IMG/VR virus record: IMGVR_UViG_3300032092_000155 | Location: 1-30,947 of that record | DNA length: 30,947 nt | Reading direction: 5' to 3' (one strand) | From: a virus | Shown here: one piece after another, positions 985-21,630 of the stretch | Numbering within the stretch: the first letter of the stretch is position 1 | Layout of the letters: every line of letters starts with the position of its first letter | The notes under the pieces: generated by a model | Told to the model about the DNA's origin: nothing | Databases searched by the model: none | The model's input: the letters and a program-made list of their open reading frames with translations, nothing else | Translations under genes and position numbers: made by a program

Positions 985-1380
985 ATGCCTATTCACTCTT
1001 CACTCACATTTGGTGCTGATCCAGTCAGTATGCAATGGAGCGTTGTTAGAGGAGATACCGCAACTCTTAGGGTTGAGTTCTTAGAAGATAATGAAGTAGA
1101 TTTTTATGATACTTCTGGTTGGATTTTTAGAGCAACCGCTTATGATCAATCTGGAAATGTTTTAGATGCCCTTGAATGTGAGCCTGGTGAGGGATTTGTA
1201 GATATTACAGCATACCCATCGGTTACAAAAAATTGGGGATCTAAATACTCTTCAATCGTGGCTCAACTACCATTTGATGTCCAGGTAACAATTCCAGAAT
1301 TAATAGAAGACACAGTTTGGACTCCTGTAATTGGAACCATACATGTATTAGGCGACATCACACCAGGGGGTACATTATAA
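985..1380 (+). CDS. beta-sandwich tail adaptor protein, baseplate-type
   Basis: This protein of 131 residues has the pattern MQWSVVRGDTATLRVEF near its N-terminus, then alternating hydrophobic strands typical of an all-beta fold. The segment is closely matched by IRWTVVRGDSAAFRVYV in the gene at 10069, and more loosely by the YKGDTFEFRIYP region of the gene at 4697, so the window holds a small family of such adaptors. Phage proteins of this type (BppU N-terminal-like) attach receptor-binding parts to a tail or baseplate; that role is inferred from fold pattern and neighbours. The ATG at 985 is preferred to the in-frame ATG at 913 because the -10 box ends 6 bases upstream of it. The stop overlaps the start of the collagen-like fibre gene (TAATG), which suggests coupled translation. 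Confidence 0.7.
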   Translation: MPIHSSLTFGADPVSMQWSVVRGDTATLRVEFLEDNEVDFYDTSGWIFRATAYDQSGNVLDALECEPGEGFVDITAYPSVTKNWGSKYSSIVAQLPFDVQVTIPELIEDTVWTPVIGTIHVLGDITPGGTL

Positions 1381-3932
1381 TGGCAGTTATTAAGATTGTT
1401 CCAATGCCAGGCGCAGTTGGAGACAAGGGAGACGAAGGAGCCGTAGGCCCTCAAGGTCCACAGGGAGCAACAGGAGAGCAAGGCCCATCAGGTGCTGATG
1501 CACTATGGAGTTATAACGGACCTTGGCAAAGCAATGCATCATATGCCGAAGGCGATGTAGTAACCTATCAGGGACAACTATATTATGTAAAATCAGTTAC
1601 AACTGCTGGAACACTACCAACAGACACATCTAAGTTTGATTTGCTTGCAGCAAAGGGTGCAGATGGAGAACCAGGATTAAATGGTCTTGAAGGAGAGCAG
1701 GGTCCACAAGGCGAACCAGGTGCAGATGGAACTAACGGAGCAGATGCCCTTTGGAATTATACTGGAGAATACAATGGTGGTGCATCATATGCCGTTGGAG
1801 ATCTTGCAACTTATGACGGACAACTTTGGTACCGTGCTAATGCAAACGGTGGAAACGTTGGAGACACACCTTCACAAGGATATATTTGGAACTTACTTGC
1901 AGCAAAGGGTACAGATGGAACAAATGGTTCTGGTGGACTTGTATATTTAGGAAACTACATTTTAGGTAATGGATATGTTACAGACCTTGCAGTTGTAAGA
2001 GGAAGCGATAATAACTTATACATTGCAAAAGCAAATGGTGGTTTAGCAGATCCAGTTGGTAACACTGCAGAGTGGGACATCTTCTCTACCAATACTGGTG
2101 GTGGAACTGCAGATCTTGGAGACTTTGAATTTACCGCAGGAACTGCAACAGTAAACGACAATCAAGCACTTATTTTGCAGTCAAAGACTCCAACTGCAGT
2201 TAAGTCACAATTATTTCTTAATCCATACGGAGTTGCAAAACTAGAAGCATTTGATAATCCAAATGTAACAACTTTTTCTGCAGCAAACCCTGACTGGGAT
2301 TCTGCTACATGGTCAGTAGAGCCTGGTGTTGGAAGTGTTATTCAATTTGTTAATGCACCAAACATTCTTAACTGGATTGGCTCATTAACAACTAGCGTAT
2401 ACGATGCTTCGCTGGTTATCAATGGTGTTGCAGCAGGCACAGTAAACGGTTTCTCTTATAGTGGTACAGATGCTACTCTTTTTATTAACAATACCGTTCC
2501 TACAGAAGATCCAACAGTAAATGAAATTGGCTTTGTGTTTGTAACATCATCATTTATTAGTATTGACTATGACGATGAATCGTTTGACATTGAAGCAAAA
2601 AATATGGATATTAATATTGAATCAGATGATGATATCTACATCACTGCTGGCGGAGATGATTTATTCCTTCGTGCAGGCGATGACATTCGCATCACATCTA
2701 ATTACAATGATCCAAGTGGTGAAACAAGTGAATGGAGAATGGATTCAGAAGGCGAATTCCATTTACCTGGACAGGGCCTTATCTGGAATCCAAGCAACTC
2801 CTCTGGCGATGGATACAGTGGCGATACAATACACCTTGTTCCAAATGATTCTGATAATGAAACAGAACAAAGAATTATTATTGACCCAACTGGGCCTAAC
2901 CACATTCACCTTCGTGCAGGTGGAGTACAAGACTATTCAACTGCAGACCTAATCCTTGGTGGAGAACGTGCAGGAGTTAGAGTTTCTGACACAGACGGAA
3001 CTACTGTTGTTCAGTCAAAACAAGAAGATTACAGTTGGTCATACCAGAATGTTGGCGAGGGTGGGCAGATATATGTAATAGCATCTGCAATGGCTGAGCC
3101 AGACATTAATGACTTTACAATTATTGGTGGTCAGAAGTATGTAATTACTAGCGTAATTAGAGATGAACCAAATGGAATTACGTCTTACGAAACTACCCCA
3201 AGTATTGGATTCATACCATTTGAAAACTATACTTTTATAAGAGATAGAGGAAACCATGCCTGGAACTTTAACAGACAGGGTTATTTAAGTGGCCCTACAG
3301 AAACAGGTCATCTACGTGTCACAGGTATTATAAATGATGACGGTAATTTAGAAGTTCAGGCAGACCAAAATCTTATTATTAGTGGTGGAGAAAGTAATGG
3401 AGAGTACTTGCATGACTCATCCGATCCAGCAAACCAGATTGCAACTATTGGAGATTTAACAATAGCAGTAGGTGTTGGGGGTAACGGAGAAGTTACAAGA
3501 TGGTCTCCAAACTTTACAGCAACTGGTTTAACATTTACTGGAACAGGTGCTACACATCCAACATACAATTCACACTATGTTAAGAATGGTCGTATGGTAA
3601 GTTTCTGGATTGAAATCAATCTTGCTACCGTGACAAATTTCGGTACAGGACAATACATCACAGCACTACCATATGCTCCACTTACTGGAACAATGAATCA
3701 CTTCCAAGCATGGGCAAATGTTGATCCAACAGTTAACCCAGATATTGCAGGACACGTTGTTTTGCAGGCAGATCATTTAGCAAATACAACTGCACTTGAT
3801 TTGCACTATCTAAAGCAGGCTGGTGGAGCAAACTCTCCTCTTATGGAGGCAATGTTTACACAAGGTGCCCCAGCAACTTTGACTACATCAAGCAAGATTT
3901 ATATCAACGGTACATACATAACTGCTGAATAA
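1380..3932 (+). CDS. collagen-like tail fibre with carbohydrate-binding-type modules
   Basis: This 850-residue protein begins with collagen-type Gly-X-Y stretches at residues 14-39 and 93-120. These are separated by three similar modules of about 50 residues (starting near 41, 123 and 185) with the pattern W..G.Y...Y..GD.V.Y.GQLY, which resembles small chitin/carbohydrate-binding modules. The middle is a long beta-rich shaft with an acidic Asp/Glu-rich segment. The last 140 residues (HYVKNGRMVSFWIEI and onward) look like a globular receptor-binding tip. The likely role is a trimeric fibre that reaches for host surface sugars. The start at 1380 overlaps the previous stop (TAATG), with GGGGG at 1366-1370 as a possible ribosome site; an in-frame ATG at 1317 lies inside the previous gene and is rejected. 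Fibre assignment is strong; the ligand is unknown. Confidence 0.8.
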   Translation: MAVIKIVPMPGAVGDKGDEGAVGPQGPQGATGEQGPSGADALWSYNGPWQSNASYAEGDVVTYQGQLYYVKSVTTAGTLPTDTSKFDLLAAKGADGEPGLNGLEGEQGPQGEPGADGTNGADALWNYTGEYNGGASYAVGDLATYDGQLWYRANANGGNVGDTPSQGYIWNLLAAKGTDGTNGSGGLVYLGNYILGNGYVTDLAVVRGSDNNLYIAKANGGLADPVGNTAEWDIFSTNTGGGTADLGDFEFTAGTATVNDNQALILQSKTPTAVKSQLFLNPYGVAKLEAFDNPNVTTFSAANPDWDSATWSVEPGVGSVIQFVNAPNILNWIGSLTTSVYDASLVINGVAAGTVNGFSYSGTDATLFINNTVPTEDPTVNEIGFVFVTSSFISIDYDDESFDIEAKNMDINIESDDDIYITAGGDDLFLRAGDDIRITSNYNDPSGETSEWRMDSEGEFHLPGQGLIWNPSNSSGDGYSGDTIHLVPNDSDNETEQRIIIDPTGPNHIHLRAGGVQDYSTADLILGGERAGVRVSDTDGTTVVQSKQEDYSWSYQNVGEGGQIYVIASAMAEPDINDFTIIGGQKYVITSVIRDEPNGITSYETTPSIGFIPFENYTFIRDRGNHAWNFNRQGYLSGPTETGHLRVTGIINDDGNLEVQADQNLIISGGESNGEYLHDSSDPANQIATIGDLTIAVGVGGNGEVTRWSPNFTATGLTFTGTGATHPTYNSHYVKNGRMVSFWIEINLATVTNFGTGQYITALPYAPLTGTMNHFQAWANVDPTVNPDIAGHVVLQADHLANTTALDLHYLKQAGGANSPLMEAMFTQGAPATLTTSSKIYINGTYITAE

Positions 3933-3957: not shown

Positions 3958-4689
3958 ATGGCTGTTTCTAAATCTATGGATTTTCCTGGTGCAAAAAAAT
4001 CTTCTTATGCTGCACAAGTAGAACAGAGTCAGTCATCTATTGGTGCTGAAAACACACTTTCTTTTCTTCCAGTCCCTGGACCAGTAGGACCACAGGGGCC
4101 TGCAGGTAGAGACGGTAAAGACGGAAAGCAAGGACCTGAAGGACCAGAAGGAAAGCCAGGTCCAAAAGGTCAGCAGGGTCCATCAGGAAAAGACGGACTA
4201 AGTTCGCTATCGTCTTCAGGACAGCAAGCAGGATGGGCTTCTTATACAAACACAATTACCAAACCAACAAAACTTGGAATATCTCAAGGAGATGATGGCT
4301 GGGTAACGCTTTTGTTAGACACAAAAGAAAAATCCCAAAACGAAACATACTTACCTAAAGGATGTACCAGCCTTTGGAATAGTCATCAAAGAGCCCTAAA
4401 CTTCCACGGCATAAAAGAAGGCTCTCAAGTGTTCGTAACATACAACTTTGAACTAACTACCTATACAGCCAATACTGAGGTTTGGCTAAGAACATACTTT
4501 GCAAGCAAGGATCAGGAGTTTGTACAATTTGTAGGATCTCTAAAGTATCAAAACGTCTATAATCTTTCAGTTACCCAGAACATATTTATTGAGGATCATG
4601 CTATGTGGGGTAACGGAGCAATACCTCAATTAAGAACAGACTTTGATGCATCAGTAATTCTCAATTCTGTGTACGTCAGCGTGGTATAA
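3958..4689 (+). CDS. short collagen-like fibre protein
   Basis: This protein of 243 residues has three parts. An N-terminal 40 residues probably attaches it to the virion. An uninterrupted collagen-type Gly-X-Y block follows at 41-80 (GPVGPQGPAG, GKPGPKG and similar, with Pro and Lys in the Y position). The C-terminal 155 residues are beta-rich and probably a trimeric head (VWLRTYFASKDQEFVQFVG). Short collagen-like shafts with globular tips are common in phage fibres and phage-derived bacterial adhesins. The Y-position Pro and Lys are the residues hydroxylated in animal collagen, which matters given the oxygenases at 16443-21630. The final residues are Val-Val-stop because the stop codon lies inside the next gene's TGGTATAAT promoter. 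Confidence 0.75.
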   Translation: MAVSKSMDFPGAKKSSYAAQVEQSQSSIGAENTLSFLPVPGPVGPQGPAGRDGKDGKQGPEGPEGKPGPKGQQGPSGKDGLSSLSSSGQQAGWASYTNTITKPTKLGISQGDDGWVTLLLDTKEKSQNETYLPKGCTSLWNSHQRALNFHGIKEGSQVFVTYNFELTTYTANTEVWLRTYFASKDQEFVQFVGSLKYQNVYNLSVTQNIFIEDHAMWGNGAIPQLRTDFDASVILNSVYVSVV

Positions 4690-4690
4690 T
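4682..4690 (+). promoter_or_regulatory. extended -10 promoter embedded in a stop codon, leaderless start at 4697
   Basis: TGGTATAAT covers the last sense codon and the TAA stop (4687-4689) of the upstream fibre gene. It ends 6 bases before the ATG at 4697. Confidence 0.75.
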
Positions 4691-5767: not shown

Positions 5768-7543
5768 GTGGCAGAAGAGAATATTGATAATACCGTTAGT
5801 GGTAACGGGCTCTTCAACACCAAAATCCCAGGTCTTTCAGATGCAGCAGATATTCAGGCAGCGTTAAGACTTTATCACTATGGGTCATATACTTATGATG
5901 GTGCAAACACAAATCCTACACTTCTTCCAAACCCCTCAATTGCAAAGCATCTTCAAAACCTTGTAGATGCAGATGCAGCAGAGGTAGTAAATAGAAATGC
6001 TGCTATTGCTACACATAATGCAGATACCACAGATGTTCATGGAATAGCAAACACAGCCCTACTTACAACAAAGTCTTATGTTGACTCATCAGATTTAAAC
6101 CTTCAAACACAAATTAATAATCTTGCAGCATCTAGCGGAGTTCAAACAACAATTGAAACAAAAATAGATAGTTTCCAACTAACACTTGCAGACGCTGGCA
6201 AAACTATTTTGCTTGCATCTCAAATATCAGGATCTCCAATTCCTGGTGAAACACTTGCGCCAATTACCATGACTCTTACTGTTCCAAGCAATGCATCTTT
6301 GGCAATACCAGTAGGTTACCAGTATAACTTTATTCAGTTTAATTATGGAAGAACAATTTTTACCCCAGCATCTGGCGTAACAATTAATAGCAAAAATGGT
6401 CAAATGTGGATTGATGAACAATACGGAAAAGCGACATTGGTAAAAGTTGCTACAGATAGTTGGGTTATTTATGGAGATATTTATGAAAACTCTTCAACTA
6501 CACCAACACCAACACCAACACCAACACCAACACCAACACCAACACCTACTCCTACTCCTACTCCTACTCCTACTCCTACTCCTACTCCTACTCCACCACC
6601 TCCATTCTTCCCGCCAGATTTCCCATTCTTCCCTCCATTCTTCCCACCAGCATTTGTTCCATTCTTCCCATCATTTAATCCAACTCCTCCTCCAACAGCA
6701 ACCCCAACCCCAACTCCAACACCTACGCCAACTCCAACTCCTACTCCAGGATTAACAACATACTATTTCTGTTGCATTGATGGAACAGGTCTAACAACTA
6801 CTGCAGCAAATTCTTCAGATGCAGCAGCACAAGCAACACAGGCTTGTTCTGGACTCTATGGTGGAGGACCAGTAGATGGAGTTTATACAACACCTCAGTC
6901 TTGTAACCCAACTGCAACTCCTACACCAACCCCAACTGCAACTCCTACACCAACTCCTACTCCTACACCAACTCCTACTCCAGGAGCAACAACATACTAT
7001 TTCTGTTGCAATGATGGAACAGGAGGAACTGTTTTTGATACAGCAGGAGGTGCTGGTGCATCAGCAACAGCGTTCTGTGGAGATTTTGGAGGCGGTCCAG
7101 CAGGAGGAGTTTACACAACACCGCAATCTTGTAACCCTCCCGCAACACCTACTCCTACACCTACAGCAACACCAACCCCTACGCCAACCGCAACACCTAC
7201 TCCAACACCTACTCCTACGCCAACCGCAACACCTACACCACCACCACTTGACTGCAGTAATGCAAATCAACTAAATCAATCACAGTGTGCAGCATGTGGA
7301 TATACATGGCAGGGTGGACAATGTTTAGATAGCCCAGCGCCATTCTTCCCACCAGCATTTGCAACACCTTTCTTCCCTCCATTCTTCCCACCAGCATTTT
7401 CTCCTGAACCTTTCTTCCCTCCATTCTTCCCACCAGCATTTTCTCCTGAACCTTTCTTCCCTCCATTCTTCCCACCAGCATTTGCGGTAGTTCCTGATTT
7501 CCCACCATTCTTCCCATCATTTACAGATCCAAATGCAGTTTAA
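5768..7543 (+). CDS. modular proline-rich surface/tail protein with (Thr-Pro)n, Cys-rich and FFPP repeats
   Basis: This 591-residue protein starts with GTG, preceded by AAAGGG at proper spacing. Residues 1-130 are a virion-type N-terminal region. Residues about 130-238 form a beta domain ending [16 protein letters not shown], closely similar to the C-terminus of the 13352 fibre (ATLLKRATDSWVVVGD). Then come 16 Thr-Pro units (245-276), an FFPP-rich block, more Thr-Pro linkers, and two copies of a Cys-rich domain of about 50 residues (about 331-381 and 407-457: YYFCC.DGTG, one Cys mid-domain, TPQSCNP). A third Cys cluster ([19 protein letters not shown]) follows near 494, then a C-terminal [10 protein letters not shown] repeat (524-591). 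The Thr-Pro parts resemble heavily glycosylated linkers. A GT60-like glycosyltransferase gene starts 63 bases downstream. I do not recognise the Cys domain or the FFPP repeat as a named family. Confidence 0.75.
6500..6595 (+). repeat. two-block hexanucleotide repeat coding for (Thr-Pro)16
   Basis: Seven ACACCA units (6500-6541), one ACACCT, seven ACTCCT units (6548-6589) and one ACTCCA all encode Thr-Pro. The abrupt change from one synonymous hexamer to another suggests two separate expansions. Gain or loss of units by slippage would keep the reading frame and change linker length. Confidence 0.9.
7367..7483 (+). repeat. 42-base tandem repeat coding for [14 protein letters not shown]
   Basis: Two exact 42-base copies (7367-7408 and 7409-7450) are followed by 33 matching bases of a third (7451-7483). 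The unit encodes 14 residues. Degenerate relatives of the unit lie at 6599-6680, 7340-7366 and in the gene at 15506. Confidence 0.9.
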
Positions 7544-7591: not shown

Positions 7592-7600
7592 TGATATACT
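7592..7600 (+). promoter_or_regulatory. extended -10 promoter, leaderless start at 7607
   Basis: TGATATACT ends 6 bases before the ATG at 7607. This gives the glycosyltransferase gene its own promoter separate from the proline-repeat gene. Confidence 0.7.
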
Positions 7601-7606
7601 TTATAT

Positions 7607-8794
7607 ATGTCAGACAAAGAGCGAGAAGTTAGACCATGGGATTTTTTTAGTCCAAACACTCCATATGCAACAAAAGATATTCAATCAAAAAGACTTGAAA
7701 TCTGTAGCAGTTGTCCAGAATTTATAAAATTAACATCTCAATGTAAAAAATGTGGGTGTATTATGAAATTAAAAACAAAACTTGCTCTTGCTTCATGCCC
7801 AATTGAAAAATGGGGAATTGTAGAAAAAGCAACTGCTGAATCAATACCAGAAGACTCATTATCTCGAATATTTATTAATATCCCATGCTACAAAGATCCA
7901 GAACTTTGGATGACTGTAGATAACTTTTTAAAAAATGCAAAGTATCCAGAAAGAATATCATTTGGAATAACTCTACAGTCCATGAACATAGAAAAAGACA
8001 AAGAAAGATCAGCAGTTTATAGTAATGTTAGTGTAGACATAATTGAGCCTGGATCTATTGTTGGATGCCAGCCAGCCAGAAAAAACTCGCATAAGTTTTA
8101 CAAAAATGAAGAGTATTATCTAAACATGGACTCCCATATGAGATCTATAAAAAACTGGGATGTTGAAATAATAAAAGAATATGAGTTCAATAAGGAACAC
8201 TACGGTGTCTCAGTATTTACAGCATATGCTCCACCATATGAATTGCTTGAAGATAATACAGACTATATTGATTCAAATATAGAAAGCAATCCAACATTTT
8301 TTATGTCTGAGTCAAACATTAATAATTTTTATAAAAATTTAGTGCCACAGTTTACATCACAGTATACAAACCCTGGATATAATGTTTTATCTCCATACAT
8401 ATCTGGGCATTTCTTTTTTACAGAAAAAAAGGTTATAGAAACTGTTCCATTTATGTCAGAAATTACATTCACAGAAGAGGAGCCTTTAATGGCTCTAAGG
8501 TTTTTTACTGCTGGATTTAATCTTGTTACACCAAGCAAAGTTTTTGTTTATCATAGGTATGGTCGTGGAGGAAGAAGTCTATTTTGGGAAGATTTTCCAG
8601 ATAAGTTTTTCCCAGAAGATCAAAAATCTAGAAACTATTTTAAAGACCTTGTGACTTCAAACAAAATAGATCCAGATAGCGGATTATTTAGTGAAAGAAC
8701 CTTAGAGGATTACGAAAAATACTCTGGAATTAGTTTTTCACAAAGAGCACTTCACGATGCTCTAAAGTCTGGGCTCCCATCTGGTTCATTTTAA
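7607..8794 (+). CDS. GT60-like GlcNAc transferase with N-terminal zinc-ribbon-like domain
   Basis: This 395-residue protein has a Cys-rich N-terminus (C33, C36, C46, C49, C51, C64; pattern C..C.........C..C.C then CP..KW) that looks like a small metal-binding domain found in phage proteins. From residue 88 it follows the GlcNAc transferase family PF11397/GT60: IFINIPCYKDPELWMTVDNF opens the nucleotide-sugar fold, YYLNMDSHMRSIKNWD (170-185) contains the family's D-S-H metal/sugar motif, and SGHFFF (266-271) with TEEEPLMALRFFTAGFNL (289-306) and VYHRYGR (314-320) match later conserved blocks. Characterised GT60 enzymes transfer GlcNAc to hydroxyproline of Dictyostelium Skp1 or to Thr of trypanosome mucins. 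Here the gene directly follows a Thr-Pro/FFPP protein, a plausible substrate. No signal peptide or membrane helix is seen, so it should act in the cytoplasm. Family assignment is strong; donor and acceptor are inferred. Confidence 0.85.
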   Translation: MSDKEREVRPWDFFSPNTPYATKDIQSKRLEICSSCPEFIKLTSQCKKCGCIMKLKTKLALASCPIEKWGIVEKATAESIPEDSLSRIFINIPCYKDPELWMTVDNFLKNAKYPERISFGITLQSMNIEKDKERSAVYSNVSVDIIEPGSIVGCQPARKNSHKFYKNEEYYLNMDSHMRSIKNWDVEIIKEYEFNKEHYGVSVFTAYAPPYELLEDNTDYIDSNIESNPTFFMSESNINNFYKNLVPQFTSQYTNPGYNVLSPYISGHFFFTEKKVIETVPFMSEITFTEEEPLMALRFFTAGFNLVTPSKVFVYHRYGRGGRSLFWEDFPDKFFPEDQKSRNYFKDLVTSNKIDPDSGLFSERTLEDYEKYSGISFSQRALHDALKSGLPSGSF

Positions 8795-8841: not shown

Positions 8842-9405
8842 TTAGTTAGGAAATTTACTCATCCAAAATTTGGTTCTTGGAGTAATACCCTTCCAAGAAG
8901 ACCAATCTTCTCCGCCTTTTGTCATGTAGTATGCAATCTCTGCATTCTTAACGGGATTAAATAGTTCGGCATTAGAGTCAAGATCAAACTTAGTTCTGCG
9001 ATCAGGACCAAGGGAATCAATCATGTTAATTTGAAACATTCCATAAGATGAGTCACCAGTCTTATGGTTTCCGTTAAAGGCTAATGGACGACCATTAGAC
9101 TCCTTCTTGGCAACAGCCCAAGCAACAACAAGGTCTTTACCCTTGAAGCCAACCAGCGAAAGCAGTTCCTTTAATTCCAAATCAGTCAGAGAAACCTTGT
9201 TCTCAAAACTCTCTAGTTTTTTTGCCTTAGAAACCAAAAAAACCTCTTTCGAGGTGGTTTCCGATGTCTGAGCCTGTTCAAGGCTAAGATTGTTTTTTGT
9301 ACCAAGATCTGAAGAAGCATTAGCAGAGTTTGACAAAACCGTTACTAGTGCTACGATGCTGAGTGTGCTAATGATCTCTTTGTTTCTTTCGATAAATTTA
9401 ATCAT
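8842..9405 (-). CDS. secreted transglycosylase/lysozyme-like endolysin
   Basis: The 187-residue product has an N-terminal signal sequence: positive residues up to Lys9, a hydrophobic stretch at about 11-24, then SNSANASSD with a likely signal peptidase site near Ala28-Ala30. A spacer follows, then a lysozyme-like SLT domain from about residue 82. AWAVAKKESNGRPLAFNG carries the expected catalytic Glu (E102), and SSYGMFQIN (119-127) is the classic G-hydrophobic-(F/M)Q motif of transglycosylases. NPVKNAEIAYYM matches the later helix. It would cleave peptidoglycan glycan strands outside the membrane and thus may be a Sec-exported lysin or an entry enzyme. The ATG at 9405 is chosen over an in-frame ATG at 9462 because AAGGAGG (9411-9417, minus strand) stands 5 bases upstream. 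It is one of only two minus-strand genes in the window. Confidence 0.85.
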   Translation of the reverse strand: MIKFIERNKEIISTLSIVALVTVLSNSANASSDLGTKNNLSLEQAQTSETTSKEVFLVSKAKKLESFENKVSLTDLELKELLSLVGFKGKDLVVAWAVAKKESNGRPLAFNGNHKTGDSSYGMFQINMIDSLGPDRRTKFDLDSNAELFNPVKNAEIAYYMTKGGEDWSSWKGITPRTKFWMSKFPN

Positions 9406-9426
9406 AGTTTCCTCCTTAGAAAACAA

Positions 9427-9446
9427 TAACACCCTGGTAGGTGTTA
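9427..9446 (-). promoter_or_regulatory. 5'-end hairpin in the lysin leader
   Basis: TAACACC and GGTGTTA form a 7-base stem with a 6-base loop. From the -10 at 9453-9458 the transcript should start close to 9446, so the stem would stand at the extreme 5' end of the lysin mRNA, where such stems often slow decay. It leaves the ribosome site at 9411-9417 free. Confidence 0.5.
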
Positions 9447-9452
9447 CTACCA

Positions 9453-9461
9453 AGTATAGCA
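9453..9461 (-). promoter_or_regulatory. extended -10 promoter for the lysin gene
   Basis: On the minus strand TGCTATACT matches the extended -10 pattern. It lies about 48 bases upstream of the lysin start, giving a leader of about 40 bases with a strong ribosome site. Confidence 0.65.
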
Positions 9462-9491
9462 TGAAATTTTTATAAAATCAACCCTAGATGG

Positions 9492-9500
9492 TGGTATAAT
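9492..9500 (+). promoter_or_regulatory. extended -10 promoter, leaderless start at 9508
   Basis: TGGTATAAT ends 7 bases before the ATG at 9508. It forms a divergent pair with the lysin promoter at 9453-9461. Confidence 0.75.
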
Positions 9501-15505: not shown

Positions 15506-16381
15506 ATGGCAAAGAAAGAATTAGGATCGAAGTCTCTACAACAGAACGACTTCTTAGAACCAAAAGCGCCAACTGGCGTTACAGCAACAGACATTGGAAC
15601 AAGTCGCTCATTTAATAATGCAGCAGTAACTGTTTCATTTTCTTTGCCAGCAGATTCCCCAGCAGCAACATCATACACAGTAACATCTTCACCAGGTGGT
15701 TTAACTGGAACTGGATCAGGTTCACCTATAACAGTTTCAGGTTTACAGTCTGGAACATCTTATACATTTACAGTTACAGCAACTAATGCTTCTGGAACAT
15801 CACAGGCATCTGCCGCTTCTACTGCTGTTACAGCAACATCTGTTCCTGCAACAGTAGGAAAACCAACTGTTTCAACATCAGTAAACCAGGATACTGTTTC
15901 CTGGTCAGCACCTGCAACTGGAGGAAAGAATATTACTGGATACAGAGTTAAGTCTTCTGATGGTCCAGTTACTGTTGTTGGAAATGTTAACACAGTAAAC
16001 ATAGCAGAAACTGGTGGAACTTCACAGAGTTATCAGGTTCTTGCAATAAATGCAAACGGTGATGGTCTTTACAGTATCAGTTCTGATAGCGTAACAACCA
16101 CACCGCCGTTCTTCCCACCATCATTTCCATTCTTCCCGTTCTTCCCACCATTCTTCCCACCATTCTTCCCACCAGCGTTCTGTCCATTCTTCCCGTTCTT
16201 CCCACCATTCTTCCCACCATTCTTCCCACCATCATTCTGTCCATTCTTCCCATCGTTCTGTCCATTCTTCCCACCGTCGTTCTGTCCGTTCTTCCCATCG
16301 TTCTGTCCGTCGTTCTGCCCATCATTCTGCCCATGGTTCCCACCATTTTTCCCATACTTTACAATCGGTGGCGCAGTCTAA
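15506..16381 (+). CDS. two-FN3-domain protein with C-terminal FFPP/FCPFFP repeat
   Basis: This protein has 291 residues. Residues about 20-110 and 111-198 are two fibronectin type III domains (APTGVTA...TSYTVTSSPGG...GTSYTFTVTATNASGTS; then TVSWSAPATGGKNITGYRV...SYQVLAINANGDG). Such domains often serve as surface-binding spacers in phage tails. The last 92 residues are almost only Phe, Pro, Ser and Cys in [10 protein letters not shown] and FCPFFP units, ending WFPPFFPYFTIGGAV. The repeat is related to that of the 5768 protein but has added Cys residues that could cross-link. TGGAG at 15493-15497 is the ribosome site. A prolyl-hydroxylase-like gene starts 61 bases after the stop. I know no named family for the repeat. 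Confidence 0.75.
   Translation: MAKKELGSKSLQQNDFLEPKAPTGVTATDIGTSRSFNNAAVTVSFSLPADSPAATSYTVTSSPGGLTGTGSGSPITVSGLQSGTSYTFTVTATNASGTSQASAASTAVTATSVPATVGKPTVSTSVNQDTVSWSAPATGGKNITGYRVKSSDGPVTVVGNVNTVNIAETGGTSQSYQVLAINANGDGLYSISSDSVTTTPPFFPPSFPFFPFFPPFFPPFFPPAFCPFFPFFPPFFPPFFPPSFCPFFPSFCPFFPPSFCPFFPSFCPSFCPSFCPWFPPFFPYFTIGGAV
16103..16360 (+). repeat. degenerate CCATTCTTCCCA-type repeat coding for FFPP/FCPFFP
   Basis: Short units of 12-15 bases built on TTCTTCCCACC and TTCTGTCC are repeated through the 3' end of the FN3 gene. They encode alternating Phe-Phe and Pro-Pro with inserted Ser-Phe-Cys. Confidence 0.85.
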
Positions 16382-16399
16382 TATATTCAAGTAGATAAG

Positions 16400-16442
16400 G
16401 TATGCCATACTGACATTACGTTGGTATGGTATACTTTATTTT
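16400..16442 (+). terminator. 11-base-pair hairpin with T-rich tail, overlapping a promoter
   Basis: GTATGCCATAC (16400-16410) pairs with GTATGGTATAC (16424-16434), ten Watson-Crick pairs and one G-U, around a 13-base loop. TTTATTTT (16435-16442) follows directly. This is a good intrinsic terminator for the structural block. Its 3' arm contains most of the -10 box for the next gene. Confidence 0.65.
16427..16435 (+). promoter_or_regulatory. extended -10 promoter, leaderless start at 16443
   Basis: TGGTATACT (extended motif from 16427) ends 7 bases before the ATG at 16443. It opens the oxygenase gene cluster. Confidence 0.7.
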
Positions 16443-17144
16443 ATGGACAAAAGATATGAATGGTATGACGCTCCACGACTAGAAAAAACACAAACTAGAC
16501 TTGAAAAGCGTACAATTACGAACAATGTTCAAGTTTTTAATTTAGAATATGGAATTAATCTATACAGAAATGCTATACCAAAAAATCAATGTCTTAGTAT
16601 TATAGACAGACTAGAGGCTGGGGCAAATAGGGATTCTTTTAATCTTTCTTGGAATGGTGCACAAGTAAATGACAAAGAAGATACTGAGCATGTAAGAAAC
16701 TGCCTTGATATTAAGTATAAAAGAGATCATATGGGTAAAGGAATTTCTTTTGATCAAGATATGTTTGATATTCATAAAGAAGTTGAAGACTGTCTTGATA
16801 TTTGCCTAAGAGACTATGAGTCTCTATGGCACCTTCAGATGTTTTACAAAGAAGCCTTTAACTTTGTCAAGTATCTACCTGGTAAATATTTTAAACTTCA
16901 TGGAGATCATGGACCATTCTATTCTTGTACAGTATCCGCAGTTGTCTACTTAAACGATAACTACTCTGGAGGAGAGATTGAATTCCCAAGACAAGGAATT
17001 AAAATTAAGCCAGAGGCTGGAGATATAATTATCTTCCCATCAAATTTTGTTTATGAACATGCATCTTGTGAAATTTTTGAGGGGACAAAGTATTCAGTCG
17101 TTATTATGACAGACTATAACGACCTTCATCACAAAACACACTAG
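16443..17144 (+). CDS. 2-oxoglutarate/Fe(II) oxygenase, prolyl-4-hydroxylase-like (1 of 5)
   Basis: This 233-residue protein has the double-stranded beta-helix oxygenase core in its C-terminal half. The Fe ligands are H153 and D155 (LHGDHG) and H206 (YEHASCE), with K216 in GTKYSVV as the probable 2-oxoglutarate anchor. A Lys anchor is typical of prolyl 4-hydroxylases; many other family members use Arg. VVYLNDNYSGGEIEFP (167-182) is the usual strand and turn between the ligands. The enzyme would use O2 and 2-oxoglutarate to hydroxylate a substrate. The substrate is unknown, but the gene directly follows a protein with 92 residues of Pro/Phe repeat. It is very similar to the next gene, indicating tandem duplication. 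No signal peptide is seen. Confidence 0.85.
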   Translation: MDKRYEWYDAPRLEKTQTRLEKRTITNNVQVFNLEYGINLYRNAIPKNQCLSIIDRLEAGANRDSFNLSWNGAQVNDKEDTEHVRNCLDIKYKRDHMGKGISFDQDMFDIHKEVEDCLDICLRDYESLWHLQMFYKEAFNFVKYLPGKYFKLHGDHGPFYSCTVSAVVYLNDNYSGGEIEFPRQGIKIKPEAGDIIIFPSNFVYEHASCEIFEGTKYSVVIMTDYNDLHHKTH

Positions 17145-17153
17145 TGGTATAAT
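17145..17153 (+). promoter_or_regulatory. extended -10 promoter with short leader
   Basis: TGGTATAAT begins immediately after the upstream stop codon. The ATG at 17176 is 22 bases downstream and has GAGAGAGG (17161-17168) as ribosome site, so this is a leadered transcript. Confidence 0.65.
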
Positions 17154-17175
17154 ATATATAGAGAGAGGTATTAAA

Positions 17176-17874
17176 ATGGATCAAGTAACTAATGCATTGC
17201 CAGAAGAGGCAAAGAACTATGAAACACCAACATGGTCATCATTTGAAAATTTAGGTAGTGGAATTATTGTATATCGAGATGTACTTCCTAAAGAACTAGA
17301 AATAATTAAAAGAATTGAAGAAAACTTAGATGAAAATCATCCTAGATACCACTGGATGGAAGCATTTGTTGGATATCAGCAAAGTATGCCAGAATATAGA
17401 GACTGTCAAGACTTTAAGTTTAAAAAAACAGACATATCTCAAGACCCTAGCCAGCAATCACTAAATCTACAATCTTTATGGCAAGACTGTTATGATAGAC
17501 AAAAGCCAGCAGTAGATCATTACAGACAAATGTTTAATATTTCAGAACTTCGATACTGGGAAGCAATGAACTTTGTTAAGTATAATAAGGGACAACATTT
17601 TCAGTACCACCACGATCACGGATTCTCTTATAATTGCACAGTATCTCTTGTTGCTTATCCTAATGACGATTATGAAGGAGGAGAACTTTCATTTGCTCAT
17701 CAAGGATTAATGCTAAAGCCAAGAGCAGGAGACCTATATGTTTTCCCATCTAACTACATGTACAGCCACAGAGCAATGCCAGTTCACTCTGGAACAAAAT
17801 ATTCAATTGTAACAATGCTAGACTATAGTGCAAAGTATCACAGTCCAGATCTTTATAGAGAAACTGGCGATTAA
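17176..17874 (+). CDS. 2-oxoglutarate/Fe(II) oxygenase, prolyl-4-hydroxylase-like (2 of 5)
   Basis: The 232-residue product mirrors the preceding enzyme: Fe ligands H145 and D147 (YHHDHG) and H198 (YSHRAMP), and K208 in GTKYSIV. The segments YWEAMNFVKYNKGQHFQYHHD and NDDYEGGELSFAHQG align residue for residue with the 16443 protein, so the pair arose by duplication and then diverged, mainly in the first 120 residues. These probably define substrate choice. Both keep all expected catalytic residues, so two active enzymes are likely. The following gene begins two bases after the stop with a TTG codon, so this and the next two genes are probably co-transcribed. Confidence 0.85.
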   Translation: MDQVTNALPEEAKNYETPTWSSFENLGSGIIVYRDVLPKELEIIKRIEENLDENHPRYHWMEAFVGYQQSMPEYRDCQDFKFKKTDISQDPSQQSLNLQSLWQDCYDRQKPAVDHYRQMFNISELRYWEAMNFVKYNKGQHFQYHHDHGFSYNCTVSLVAYPNDDYEGGELSFAHQGLMLKPRAGDLYVFPSNYMYSHRAMPVHSGTKYSIVTMLDYSAKYHSPDLYRETGD

Positions 17875-17876
17875 TA

Positions 17877-18584
17877 TTGAACATTAGTGTTTATCAAAAA
17901 GATACTTCTAAAGTAAATTTTTACCCACTGTCTGTAAAGAGAGATTGGATGGATATTACTTTTGAAAAGCATGCATACAGATGTTTTCCTGTATCTCTTG
18001 CAAACACTCTAGGATGGACATTTTCGTATCCAGTTGATATATCTTTTATATGGGACGGAAATCCAGGCTCAGAAGATGGACATGTAGAGGTTTTGTCTGG
18101 TCATGAACACGTGTTTACTAATAGATCTAATGCAACAATAAGTTTTAATAGTGAAATAACTTTTAGAACAGAAGAAAATGTTAGTCTTTTAGTCATGCCA
18201 GTTCCAAATCAATTTATTGATGGTGTTCAAGGTTTTACAACAATACTTAGTACTTCCGTGCTAGAACCAGCACTGCCCTATGCATGGAAAATAACAAAAG
18301 CCAATGAGATTATAACAATCCCAGCAAATACACCAATAGCGTCAATAATTCCAATTAACTTAACAAATATACAAGATACTAATGTTTCTTTGTATACAGA
18401 AAATTTTGATCCTAAGTACTATGAGCAACTTTCTGAATATGGAAGAGTATCTGGAGAAATGACTAAGTATGGAACATGGACAAACTTTTACAGAGATGCG
18501 GTAGATCATAAAGGAAATAGTCGTGGTGAGCACGAACTAAAAAGTTTAAAGTTAAAGGTTAATGACCATAGAAATGAGAAATAA
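17877..18584 (+). CDS. DUF6065-like protein
   Basis: This 235-residue protein contains KHAYRCFPVSLANTLGW (31-47) and FIWDGNP, which match my recollection of the DUF6065 pattern (R-C-x-P-L-x-x-A-N-x-x-G-W). The family has no established function. The product is mostly beta with an IPANTPIASIIPINL segment near 165, like the cupin-type core of the next protein. It starts with TTG two bases after the upstream stop. I keep this start because it is tightly packed and the next in-frame ATG, near 17949, would delete the first 24 residues. It overlaps the next start by one base (TAATG). Position among five oxygenases suggests a shared pathway, but that is inference. Confidence 0.65.
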   Translation: MNISVYQKDTSKVNFYPLSVKRDWMDITFEKHAYRCFPVSLANTLGWTFSYPVDISFIWDGNPGSEDGHVEVLSGHEHVFTNRSNATISFNSEITFRTEENVSLLVMPVPNQFIDGVQGFTTILSTSVLEPALPYAWKITKANEIITIPANTPIASIIPINLTNIQDTNVSLYTENFDPKYYEQLSEYGRVSGEMTKYGTWTNFYRDAVDHKGNSRGEHELKSLKLKVNDHRNEK

Positions 18585-19318
18585 TGAATACAGAAAAAAT
18601 AACATTTTTATCAAACAAAACATGGCTTTCAAAAGATAGTAAATCAACACCAAGATCTATAATCAGGACAATACCTGAGTGGTACAGAAAAGCAGATAGG
18701 TTCGCAAAATCTCCAACAGATGATTCATTTGTTATTGGTCCAGACAATGGTAAAATTCCAACATGGAAGGCATGCCCAGCAATTTTTGACATAATGGGAA
18801 CAGGTTATGCTTTAAGTACTCCATGTGATATTGAGTTTTACATTAAAGATAACAAAATAAAGCACAGGGTTCTTGATGGCAAGTATCAAGACTTTATTCA
18901 GGTAAGAGATGAGATGCCACAGTTTCAGCATCCCCGTGGCTACTACATTGATCACTTTGCTTTAACCTGCGACTGGCAAATAAAACTTCCTCCAGGGTAT
19001 AGCGCTTTATATTCACAGCCATTTAATAGGTTTGAATTGCCATTCTTAGTTACCAGTGGAATTATTGACAATGATAAGGTACATCTACCAGGCTCTCTTC
19101 CATTTTTTATTATTGAAGGATTTGAAGGTATTATTCCAGCAGGAACTACGTATGCACAGTTAATTCCATTTAAAAGAGAAAATTGGATATCAGAGATTAT
19201 TGAGCAAGAAGATGGAAGAGAACTTATGATGCAGGCATTTGAAAACTCAAAAATTTACAGAAAGCCAGACGGAGGAGTTTATAAAAACGAGGTTTGGGAA
19301 CAAAGAAAATATGAGTAG
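18584..19318 (+). CDS. cupin-like phage protein of unknown function
   Basis: This 244-residue protein has SIIRTIPEWYRKADRFA near the N-terminus and IPTWKACPAIFDIMGTGYAL (58-77), then CDIEFY. The second half has PFFIIEGFEGIIPAGTTYAQ followed by LIPFKREN. Proteins of this pattern occur in marine phages and seem to have a cupin-like beta core. The repeated plan (P-x-W, CP, GYxLxxPCDI, IPAGTxxAQLIP) is loosely shared with the preceding DUF6065-like gene, so both may be distant relatives. No His triad for metal is obvious. It is translationally coupled to the gene before it. Unknown role, probably linked to the neighbouring oxygenases. Confidence 0.6.
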   Translation: MNTEKITFLSNKTWLSKDSKSTPRSIIRTIPEWYRKADRFAKSPTDDSFVIGPDNGKIPTWKACPAIFDIMGTGYALSTPCDIEFYIKDNKIKHRVLDGKYQDFIQVRDEMPQFQHPRGYYIDHFALTCDWQIKLPPGYSALYSQPFNRFELPFLVTSGIIDNDKVHLPGSLPFFIIEGFEGIIPAGTTYAQLIPFKRENWISEIIEQEDGRELMMQAFENSKIYRKPDGGVYKNEVWEQRKYE

Positions 19319-19323
19319 AGTGG

Positions 19324-19332
19324 TGGTATAAT
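19324..19332 (+). promoter_or_regulatory. extended -10 promoter, leaderless start at 19339
   Basis: TGGTATAAT ends 6 bases before the ATG at 19339. It divides the oxygenase cluster into two transcription units. Confidence 0.75.
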
Positions 19333-19338
19333 CTTATT

Positions 19339-20019
19339 ATGGATAACAGAGAGTACGCAAATAACTATGTTGCAGATAGGTTTTCAATAACACCATCAGG
19401 ATATTTTGGAAATGACAAAGTTAACATTCAGGGTAGAGAAAATTTTATTAGTTCAGAAGATTTAGATTTTTTGTCAAATGCTGCAAAAAATATAACTATC
19501 TGGGATTTAACCGAAACACATTATGATGATAATGGTGTTATGATATATGACTCATCATATTGGGAAGACCGTGTTGCAACATCAAGAACGCTGATGCTTA
19601 ATGATGAAAGAATAAACCCAATAATTGAAAAACTACAAGCACGACTAAAAGAAGAGGTCGATGATTTCTTCGGTGTAGACGCTTGGCCAACAAGTCCAGC
19701 AATTGTTCGATGGTTGCCTGGACAACTTCAACTGCCACATGCTGATAAAGAATTGCATGAAGGAGAAAATGCAGGAAAGCCAAACGATTTTCCATACTAT
19801 GATATTGCTGGATTATTTTATTTAAATGACGACTATGAAGGCGGGGAACTTTATTTTCCAAAGCAAGATGTTCAGTTTAAGCCAAAATCAGGAGCAGCAT
19901 ACTTTTTCCCAGGAGATCTAAACTATATACACGGAGTAACAGAAATTACAAGCGGTATAAGATATGTTATTCCATTTTTCTTTACAATCTTGTCTCATAA
20001 GGATAAGACTCATGCCTGA
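19339..20019 (+). CDS. 2-oxoglutarate/Fe(II) oxygenase (3 of 5)
   Basis: The 226-residue product has Fe ligands H134 and D136 (PHADKE) and H198 (YIHGVTEI), with R208 in SGIRYVIPFF as the 2-oxoglutarate anchor. GLFYLNDDYEGGELYFPKQ (158-176) is the strand pair typical of the family. The Arg anchor and the HGVxEI motif are shared with the gene at 20839 and not with the first two enzymes, so the cluster contains at least two subfamilies. Substrate is unknown. Its last 8 bases overlap the start of the next gene. Confidence 0.85.
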   Translation: MDNREYANNYVADRFSITPSGYFGNDKVNIQGRENFISSEDLDFLSNAAKNITIWDLTETHYDDNGVMIYDSSYWEDRVATSRTLMLNDERINPIIEKLQARLKEEVDDFFGVDAWPTSPAIVRWLPGQLQLPHADKELHEGENAGKPNDFPYYDIAGLFYLNDDYEGGELYFPKQDVQFKPKSGAAYFFPGDLNYIHGVTEITSGIRYVIPFFFTILSHKDKTHA

Positions 20020-20839
20020 AATCACGATAACTAAGTTAGATGAGAACATATACATCTATAAAGGATTAATCCCAAACAATAAAAAAATTGTAGAATTATT
20101 AAAGGAATCTGAATCTAATAAGGGTAGTAGTTTTTTATTCGACGACTGGCAGCCCTGGAGTCGCTTCGGTTCATACGTCTATACAATTGGTCAGCCACTA
20201 AATGAAAATGACGAAAACGCAAAAACGCAACTTTATTTGGATGAAAAAGAAGCACTTGACACAATCTTGAATGCTTTTTATTATGCAACTAGTAACTTCA
20301 TGTCTTCTCACGAACTTTCAATTGGAGAAGATTGGGTAAGGATGGGCCCATCAATTTCAAAATATACTCATGACAACAACCCACACCTTAGTGAAGATTC
20401 TTTAGAAATGATGTATCATACAGACTATAAGGTATTTGAAGCAGACTCGCCAGGAAATAAGTTTGCACTTACGTGCACAATGTACTTAAATGATGACTAT
20501 AGAGATGGCGGATTATCTTTCTTAACTGGAGATAAAAGAACAATAGATTATAAGCCAGTTGCTGGAGATGTCTTAGTTTTTCCATCTGGGCACCCAGATC
20601 TTCTTTCTCAGGAGGGAAGATATCTTCATGCCGTTAAAAGAATTAGAGATGTAGATAAATATCTTGTTAGATGTTTTTATCAAATTCCTTTTGATGGAAC
20701 ACCAGAGTGGCATGCAAATCAGGAAAGATTCGGTGCTGAAGAATGGGCAAAGATGGAAAAGGAAAGAATTGAAAATAATCGCAGATATCATGATTTTCAA
20801 AATAAAGAAGAAAAGCAAGAGAATAGTGAGAAGATGTAA
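20012..20839 (+). CDS. 2-oxoglutarate/Fe(II) oxygenase (4 of 5)
   Basis: This protein has 275 residues. The Fe ligands are H136 and D138 (YHTDYK) and H206 (YLHAVKRI). K216 or R220 in DKYLVRCFYQ would hold 2-oxoglutarate. CTMYLNDDYRDGGLSFLTGD (155-174) and YKPVAGDVLVFPSG are family strands. The C-terminal 50 residues are highly charged and helical (EEWAKMEKERIENNRRYHDF). The start at 20012 is chosen because AAGGA (19999-20003) lies 8 bases upstream; an in-frame ATG at 19964 lies deep within the previous gene. It overlaps the genes on both sides, so the last three oxygenases are one operon. It is the most divergent of the five. Confidence 0.8.
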   Translation: MPEITITKLDENIYIYKGLIPNNKKIVELLKESESNKGSSFLFDDWQPWSRFGSYVYTIGQPLNENDENAKTQLYLDEKEALDTILNAFYYATSNFMSSHELSIGEDWVRMGPSISKYTHDNNPHLSEDSLEMMYHTDYKVFEADSPGNKFALTCTMYLNDDYRDGGLSFLTGDKRTIDYKPVAGDVLVFPSGHPDLLSQEGRYLHAVKRIRDVDKYLVRCFYQIPFDGTPEWHANQERFGAEEWAKMEKERIENNRRYHDFQNKEEKQENSEKM

Positions 20840-21630
20840 TGATCATTGATAAAATCAATAAGTCTGACTTTATATATTTTAGGGATGAGCCAAATGATAA
20901 AGGCGTTCTAGGAATAACGCATAATCGTATTGTTGAAATTCCAAACTTTCTTGATGAAGAAACTGCAAAAAACATGATTTCGTATGTTGAATCAAAAGGG
21001 GAAAACTGGGGAGATATTGCTTTTTACGGATCGCTAGGAATGGGACTTGCAGAATCAGATCCTGGATTACTAGAAAATGGTCTAACTCTTACATTTTTTT
21101 CAGACTTAAGAGAAAAGTTTAAAGAGGCTGTAGAGTTGGTTTTTGAAAGAAAAGTAAGGCCAAACACATCTCATGCACAAAAATGGGATGTGGGAGGATT
21201 TGCTGCACCACATTCTGATAATTCTGATTTTGAAGGAAAGCCTAATGCATTCGAAATTAACAAGTATGTTGGTATACTTTACCTAAACGATGACTATGAA
21301 GGTGGAGAACTATTTTTTGTTGAGCCTAAAAGTTCTGGAGTAATACACACAGATCCAAATGGAACGAGATCTCCAGAATGGGAAAAGCCATATCTTTCAT
21401 TTAAGCCAAACAAATTGTCATATTATGTATTTCCTGGCGGAATCGAAAATGTTCATGGGGTTAGTGAAATACTTGCAGGAACAAGATACACAATGGTGTC
21501 TTTTTGGGACTATGAAGAAATTGAATATGATCAAGAAACTCTTGATCGATGGGAAGAAGAAGAAAAGCAAGTTAGAATTGCACAAGCAATTCAAAAAGAA
21601 GAGTGGCTTAAAGGCAATAAATACGCATAA
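20839..21630 (+). CDS. 2-oxoglutarate/Fe(II) oxygenase (5 of 5)
   Basis: The 263-residue product has Fe ligands H125 and D127 (PHSDNSD) and H206 (NVHGVSEI), and R216 in GTRYTMVSFW as the 2-oxoglutarate anchor. GILYLNDDYEGGELFFVEPK (145-164) is followed by an insertion of about 20 residues before the next strand (YLSFKPNKLSYYVFPGG). The last 40 residues are acidic and helical. It starts on the stop codon of the previous gene (TAATG). The enzyme is closest to number 3 in its distal motif. About 96 bases separate it from the ribonucleotide reductase gene, with an inverted repeat and a new promoter between. Confidence 0.85.
   Translation: MIIDKINKSDFIYFRDEPNDKGVLGITHNRIVEIPNFLDEETAKNMISYVESKGENWGDIAFYGSLGMGLAESDPGLLENGLTLTFFSDLREKFKEAVELVFERKVRPNTSHAQKWDVGGFAAPHSDNSDFEGKPNAFEINKYVGILYLNDDYEGGELFFVEPKSSGVIHTDPNGTRSPEWEKPYLSFKPNKLSYYVFPGGIENVHGVSEILAGTRYTMVSFWDYEEIEYDQETLDRWEEEEKQVRIAQAIQKEEWLKGNKYA

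Follow-up and report, generated by a model that had tools for sequence, protein, structure and literature searches.

Viral and algal prolyl 4-hydroxylases (P4Hs), such as vCPH of PBCV-1 (5c5t) and CrP4H of Chlamydomonas (2jig/3gze), act on proline-rich repeats and have in common a double-stranded beta-helix fold, the HxD...H motif and a Lys anchor. Likeness to these enzymes was found in a cluster of five 2-oxoglutarate (2OG)/Fe(II) oxygenases, OG1 to OG5, on the uncultured viral contig IMGVR_UViG_3300032092_000155 (30.9 kb; “window” below means this whole analysed stretch of 30,947 nucleotides). The structural model of OG2, for example, aligns with CrP4H (3gze) with Z 19.7 over 173 residues. 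The five genes stand together with T2, a tail protein ending in a Phe/Pro repeat of the xFP or xFPP type, and with D and d, two homologous proteins of which D belongs to DUF6065, and this module is located between tail genes and a ribonucleotide reductase (RNR) gene. vCPH and CrP4H each act alone, on peptides of the Ser-Pro or collagen-like type, while the phage module brings together 2 to 12 clustered paralogues, an xFPP gene and DUF6065.

Several hydroxylases acting on one repeat protein are known from the vertebrate collagen set (P4H, P3H1 and LH3), in which OG3 and OG5 match prolyl 3-hydroxylase 1 (P3H1), and OG1, OG2 and OG4 match P4H. The phage repeat differs in being composed of Phe and Pro without Gly-X-Y, and the accessory proteins are not shared. 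In plant extensins and other hydroxyproline-rich glycoproteins, several P4Hs hydroxylate contiguous prolines, and glycosylation follows. The window resembles this system in its (Thr-Pro)n runs and in a PF11397 transferase, but its candidate substrate is a phage virion protein, and glycosylation is at most suggested. Of 28 long contigs with the module, 7 encode a PF11397 protein, and we rejected the glycosyltransferase as a constant part of the module on this count.

Among phages, the PHROG 61-type 2OG oxygenases of T4-like cyanophages belong to the same superfamily and sometimes lie beside tail-fibre genes (S-H9-1). Cyanophage matches to the cluster enzymes show about 23-28% identity over most of the query, and the three cyanophage regions in which an xFPP tail was sought had none. 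Cyanophage S-SCSM1 carries 24 2OG genes, the functions of which “have not been specifically investigated” (PMC9602691), the use of a viral prolyl 4-hydroxylase “remains cryptic” (PMC9301287), and phage 2OG proteins resemble EGLN3 (PMC12774648). Literature searches retrieved neither a report of xFPP tail, array and DUF6065 as a unit nor a paper naming DUF6065. The proposed chemistry is of a known kind; what appears to be new is the module in phages, together with its repeat code.

We consider it fairly probable that these genes form a tail-protein maturation module, in which the array would hydroxylate prolines of the adjacent xFP/xFPP repeat tail, with sequence contexts split among the paralogues. 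An earlier note on this DNA delimited the cluster at 16443-21630. Its oxygenase open reading frames (ORFs) are retained and its boundary is not, as the tail protein at 15506-16381 also belongs to the cluster.

Repeat tail proteins and neighbouring oxygenases

T2 is 291 residues long, and its repeat tail, starting at residue 200, accumulates 33 Pro and 36 Phe in 86 residues. The gene ends 61 bases upstream of OG1, and a tail gene is found directly before OG1 in most relatives too. Spacers between proline runs, compared in 232 tails, are mostly of the xF type (FF 2497 times, followed by YF, HF and SF), and F is nearly invariant before a proline run. Proline codons in the tails are mixed, the commonest one having a median share of 0.61, and the repeat pattern is thus maintained as protein and not as a DNA repeat. 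The N-terminal part of the tail protein is exchanged among relatives (fn3, or PASTA in locus L198), while the repeat stays.

In many relatives, a Hint/intein-like domain follows the xFPP tail (L079, L095, L126 and L134, with similar C-termini in L117-L133 and L143-L148). Matches to Intein_splicing in L095 (2e-5) and Hint_2 in L134 (3e-5) are both under the Pfam cut-off. Given this domain, such tails may be cleaved or ligated after translation. A protein with a different proline repeat, (PTF)n, is encoded upstream of the module in L126 (L126:3-1562) and is possibly another substrate. In the tail protein upstream of OG2 in L060, the repeat shifts reading frame midway (SPPLFFAHHCSLDHQD...), owing to a sequencing error or to slippage in the repeat.

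Association of the repeat with oxygenases was assessed by scanning IMG/VR with a DNA pattern for a 12-residue FFPP-type repeat, blind to oxygenases. Loci with at least 4 kb downstream were scored, a 2OG gene was sought within 8 kb, and counts refer to the matches listed. A 2OG gene was detected downstream in 50 of 59 xFPP-repeat loci, and two or more in 45 of them. The control, a collagen-like GPQGPQGP pattern, had a 2OG gene in 4 of 57 loci and two or more in 2 (odds ratio 74, p 1e-18, for loci that are not fully independent). The oxygenases are therefore associated with xFPP tails rather than with tail fibres of any kind.

The same control bears on collagen-like Gly-X-Y phage fibres, which have been proposed as substrates of viral P4Hs in general. 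Two collagen-like fibres are indeed encoded in the window (1317-3932 and 3958-4689), and collagen P4H, P3H and LH3 are among the PDB matches of the cluster enzymes. However, the scarcity of oxygenases at GPQ loci disfavours collagen as the substrate, and no long Gly-X-Y protein was seen in the fetched flanks of most module loci; we consider this explanation very unlikely.

IMG/VR was searched for relatives of D and d, which were retrieved with flanking DNA. In about 130 contigs the gene order is xFPP tail protein - (glycosyltransferase) - OG1 - OG2 - D - d - OG3 - (OG4/OG5)n, with up to 12 oxygenases per module. Some of the jackhmmer glycosyltransferase labels in these gene-order maps correspond to the N-terminal domain only, and the frequency of this gene is overstated there. 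An xFPP tail protein is present in 61 of 64 DUF6065 loci having at least 7 kb upstream, and the gene directly upstream of D is OG2 in 118 of 138 cases. In distant contigs, where D is 27-33% identical, the module persists as xFPP tail - OG3 - OG2 - D - more oxygenases, and their fetched flanks contain no homologues of the RNR, portal and head genes of the window. The earlier note had asked whether DUF6065 always accompanies such an array. It usually does but not always: D or d was found in 38 of 72 repeat-selected loci among the matches listed, many of them incomplete.

In L198 (L198:5051-15514), a PASTA-xFPP tail and several PF13640 enzymes are accompanied by three oxygenases of the TauD family and by two glutathione-peroxidase-like proteins. 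One bacterial genome scan for DUF6065 yielded only a phage-like contig of 5.3 kb, binned with a Chitinophagaceae metagenome-assembled genome (L240, JAFMJX010000128.1). It carries the module described for the window, including an xFPP tail, and is probably phage DNA inside a bacterial bin. In a search for cultured relatives among 50,697 phage records, tblastn gave no match for DUF6065, either with the window copy or with that of L182, and none for the fn3 part of T2.

Enzyme families and repeat grammar

All five oxygenases score above the PF13640 cut-off (29-51 bits vs 27) and contain HxD...H, so that the intact ligands described in the earlier note were confirmed, as were its anchor residues, Lys in OG1 and OG2 and Arg in OG3 and OG5; the anchor of OG4 is Lys. 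None of 305 representative homologues deviates in the H, D and H ligands (305/305), and at the anchor position 170 have K, 134 have R and one has a gap. This invariant triad with its basic anchor argues that the OG-type enzymes are not degenerate copies. OG1 and OG2, previously described as recent duplicates, are 38.6% identical and fall into separate orthologue clades of 41 and 48 representatives (support 0.99 for OG1, a weak 0.32 for OG2), and are thus old paralogues. The likely start of OG4 is the ATG at 20012, while the listed start at 19964 would overlap OG3.

Bacterial P4H is the best match of the OG1, OG2 and OG4 profiles. The OG2 model aligns with Trichoplax PHD, algal P4H with (Ser-Pro)5, human PHD2 and Pseudomonas putida P4H with Z 18.6-19.9; its best structural matches are all prolyl hydroxylases, in agreement with Foldseek. 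The nearest solved structures of the remaining enzymes, OG1, OG3, OG4 and OG5, are likewise prolyl hydroxylases, by sequence profile only. Matches of the cluster oxygenases to phrog_61 range from 5e-31 to 1.5e-10. For Tet_JBP, the OG matches are below its cut-off, and TET-like structures are matched by the OG3 and OG5 profiles with E 1e-3 to 1e-2, compared to 1e-11 to 1e-12 for P3H1. Judged by Tet_JBP score and profiles, the OGs are not closer to nucleobase oxygenases (TET/JBP, AlkB) than to protein oxygenases. Together with the tie of the module to a Pro/Phe-repeat tail, this supports the protein substrates that the earlier note had preferred to nucleobases. PHROG families 3531, 2297 and 274 (“ferrochelatase”, “DNA endonuclease” and “DNA endonuclease V”) also match the 2OG domains of the cluster, and cyanophage genes annotated as “ferrochelatase” appear to contain 2OG oxygenase domains, e.g. 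KJ019091.1 147201-148289.

We compared the enzyme content of the loci with the grammar of their tails. The rule for OG1 is that two or more single-Pro FPxF units in the tail go with presence of the gene, and one or none with its absence. The rule held in the first locus set for unambiguous OG1, in 150 of 153 loci overall, and in all 32 loci fetched via the FFPP pattern after it had been stated (among the matches listed). Similarly, the rule that OG3, OG4 or OG5 is present where F(x)PPxF units occur held in 118 of 118 loci. Five contigs lack OG3, OG4 and OG5 altogether (L031, L052, L145, L166 and L167), and their tails, of the FFPFFP or PPPF type, contain no more than one F(x)PPxF unit each. 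The absence of the P3H-like pair where Pro-Pro units are missing fits the P3H1 likeness, without proving anything. In independent pairs, concordance was found in 3 of 4 for OG1 and in 3 of 3 for OG3/4/5, and none were opposed. The enzyme set tracks the repeat grammar, which is suggestive.

Several points weigh against hydroxylation of repeat prolines as the function of the array. Grammar patterns and thresholds were picked after inspecting the first locus set. Loci L178 and L165 are exceptions to the OG1 rule, the third, L007, being a gene-overlap artefact. The loci are related by descent: on the DUF6065 tree, OG1 changes just 5 times and OG3/4/5 just 4 times, and neither correlation alone therefore reaches p 0.05. 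No oxygenase was detected downstream in 9 of 59 repeat loci among the matches listed, and TauD-family oxygenases are an addition in some modules. For these reasons, the chemistry may go beyond prolyl hydroxylation, and the activity of the module is a predicted one.

One form of such chemistry retains the repeat tail as the substrate, with Phe/Tyr hydroxylation, at the ring or the beta carbon, or cross-links in place of prolyl hydroxylation. The xF dipeptide is conserved as strongly as the prolines, and the additional TauD-family and glutathione-peroxidase-like proteins of L198 would suit it. We find it rather unlikely, considering that prolyl hydroxylases are the best matches of the OG2 model and of all five OG profiles and that enzyme content follows proline number and spacing. 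An auxiliary metabolic role, through consumption of 2-oxoglutarate or modification of a host protein such as EF-Tu, with incidental adjacency of the tail gene, is what published work usually suggests for cyanophages (PMC9602691, PMC10611076). EF-Tu-modifying bacterial P4Hs are also among the structural neighbours. This role is nevertheless unlikely in our estimate, as it accounts neither for repeat DNA predicting enzymes and an enzyme set following the repeat grammar, nor for five to a dozen distinct paralogues held in order.

DUF6065 proteins and genomic setting

Coordinates of the module and of other features in the window are listed in Table 1.

Table 1. Features located in the window and the evidence for each
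Feature	Position	Strand	Evidence
T2, proposed substrate, two fn3 domains and C-terminal xFP/xFPP repeat	15506..16381	+	fn3 PF00041 6e-12; composition
22-pair hairpin between T2 and OG1, terminator- or attenuator-like	16393..16441	+	dG -27.1 kcal/mol, z -7.9
OG1, P4H-like 2OG/Fe(II) oxygenase, Lys anchor	16443..17144	+	PF13640 1e-11; Bacillus anthracis P4H (BaP4H) profile 6e-6
OG2, P4H-like 2OG/Fe(II) oxygenase, Lys anchor	17176..17874	+	PF13640 2e-13; AlphaFold2 (AF2) pLDDT 86.7
D, DUF6065 protein, dUTPase-like beta-clip model	17877..18584	+	PF19541 1e-32, 114 bits vs cut-off 26.6; AF2 pLDDT 83.4
d, second DUF6065-like protein	18584..19318	+	phrog_7084 1.5e-30
OG3, P3H1-like 2OG/Fe(II) oxygenase, Arg anchor	19339..20019	+	PF13640 4e-8; prolyl 3-hydroxylase 1 profile 3.5e-12
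OG4, divergent P4H-like 2OG/Fe(II) oxygenase, Lys anchor	20012..20839	+	PF13640 2e-7; BaP4H 6e-4, algal P4H 7e-4
OG5, P3H1-like 2OG/Fe(II) oxygenase, Arg anchor	20839..21630	+	PF13640 2e-6; P3H1 profile 1.1e-11
T1, second candidate substrate, tail-region protein	5768..7543	+	(Thr-Pro)n runs and several 10-residue blocks also in T2
Accessory PF11397 GlcNAc (N-acetylglucosamine)-transferase-family protein	7607..8794	+	PF11397 5e-38, 132 bits vs cut-off 21
TGNTATAMT sites, examples	4682-4690, 7592-7600, 9492-9500, 16427-16435, 19324-19332		

The DUF6065-like gene recognized in the earlier note is gene D, a clear member of PF19541, to which this analysis adds a model fold and a genomic setting. 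The second gene, formerly called cupin-like, is d: neither D nor d has a cupin match in Pfam, both match phrog_7084, and their profiles are homologous (hhalign P 92%, E 7e-7). Gene d has no match in Pfam, where it does not reach the DUF6065 cut-off, and its kinship to D is by profile only. The model of D resembles the beta-clip of dUTPases, with Z about 10 and a root-mean-square deviation of 2.6-7 A over 114-135 residues at 6-12% identity; dUTPases are also listed by Foldseek, with E only about 5e-3. The cupin label thus finds no support in Pfam or in the fold search with D. By hhalign against E. coli Dut, just 12-22 residues of D were aligned, with E about 0.1, and the dUTPase motif test failed. 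Membership of DUF6065 in dUTPases was rejected on this sequence test, and the likeness is one of predicted fold only.

Relatives of d exist in Hafunaviridae haloviruses (HSTV-2, HF2 and others; L005:6833-7702, L006:6842-7726), where they are not beside 2OG arrays and lie near thymidylate synthase or RNR genes. Considering this location, the DUF6065/d family may have an older role.

These properties could be read as a pathway for DNA or nucleotide modification, in which DUF6065 would be a dUTPase-like helper and the adjacent RNR, starting at 21727 after OG5, would take part. The predicted fold of D, the setting of the halovirus relatives and the weak Tet_JBP matches are compatible with it. However, RNR, portal and head protease occur in the same order in the Streptomyces phage Annadreamy, with the module absent, and many modules have no adjacent RNR. 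The RNR is hence part of the phage backbone, and we rejected it as a module member. In addition, DUF6065 fails sequence membership in dUTPases, prolyl hydroxylases surpass TET-like structures by many orders of magnitude, and the tight link to the xFPP protein would be left unexplained. We regard DNA modification as highly improbable.

The portal and the head maturation protease encoded in the window are 45% and 44% identical, respectively, to those of Streptomyces phages of Stanwilliamsviridae such as Annadreamy. Based on these identities, the window is placed near this group, as part of an uncultured phage with an actinobacterium as the probable host. A lysozyme-like SLT_3 gene is placed amid its tail genes on the opposite strand (8842-9462, -).

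The 3' arm of the hairpin between T2 and OG1 includes a TGGTATACT promoter-like motif. Among relatives, 42 of 73 gaps between the tail gene and the first OG have z below -3. A strong hairpin at this position would fit a higher output of substrate than of enzyme. The motif TGNTATAMT, similar to an extended -10 element, was observed 17 times in the window, compared to 3.7 expected. In seven copies, the motif stops 6-7 bases short of a start codon, with OG1 and OG3 among the genes preceded, and another copy is 22 bases before OG2. This spacing points to numerous small promoters giving leaderless transcripts, those before OG1 and OG3 among them.

Proposed maturation of the tail protein

We infer that the repeat tail is the substrate, that proline is the target, at its 3- or 4-position, and that DUF6065, the glycosyltransferase and the hairpin have roles in the process. 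According to this proposal, the polyproline-type repeat ending the virion tail protein, with its unit x-F-P(-P), would be hydroxylated before or during virion assembly by the adjacent array of P4H-like (OG1, OG2, OG4) and P3H-like (OG3, OG5) enzymes, using O2, Fe(II) and host 2-oxoglutarate. Units with a single proline (F-P-x-F) would be served by OG1 and those with Pro-Pro (F-(x)-P-P-x-F) by the OG3/4/5 group, and the product would be a hydroxyproline-rich rod in place of a very greasy Phe/Pro tail. D and d might be dedicated partners, and our guess is that they bind, present or trimerise the repeat. In some phages, the PF11397 enzyme may also glycosylate the hydroxylated tail; its family includes the Dictyostelium Skp1 hydroxyproline GlcNAc transferase. 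Since the enzymes present vary with the grammar of a single repeat tail, we favour, of the two possibilities raised in the earlier note, successive steps on one substrate over a number of unrelated substrates.

More tentatively, and with somewhat more doubt than confidence, the module could be regarded as a phage hydroxyproline-rich-protein system of uncultured aquatic phages. A P4H-/P3H-like set with DUF6065/beta-clip partners would then read the x-F-P(-P) repeat unit by unit, producing a new hydroxylated, and sometimes glycosylated, virion rod.

The module points to a candidate substrate gene, to a repeat code and to an assignment of enzymes to contexts, and one peptide assay could test them. 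If the proposal is true, compact oxygen-dependent enzymes for modifying Phe/Pro repeats would become available, the multi-copy 2OG arrays would be explained and DUF6065 would be given a setting. Phage 2-oxoglutarate oxygenases would gain a concrete, testable substrate, and post-translational hydroxylation of virion proteins would be added to phage biology.

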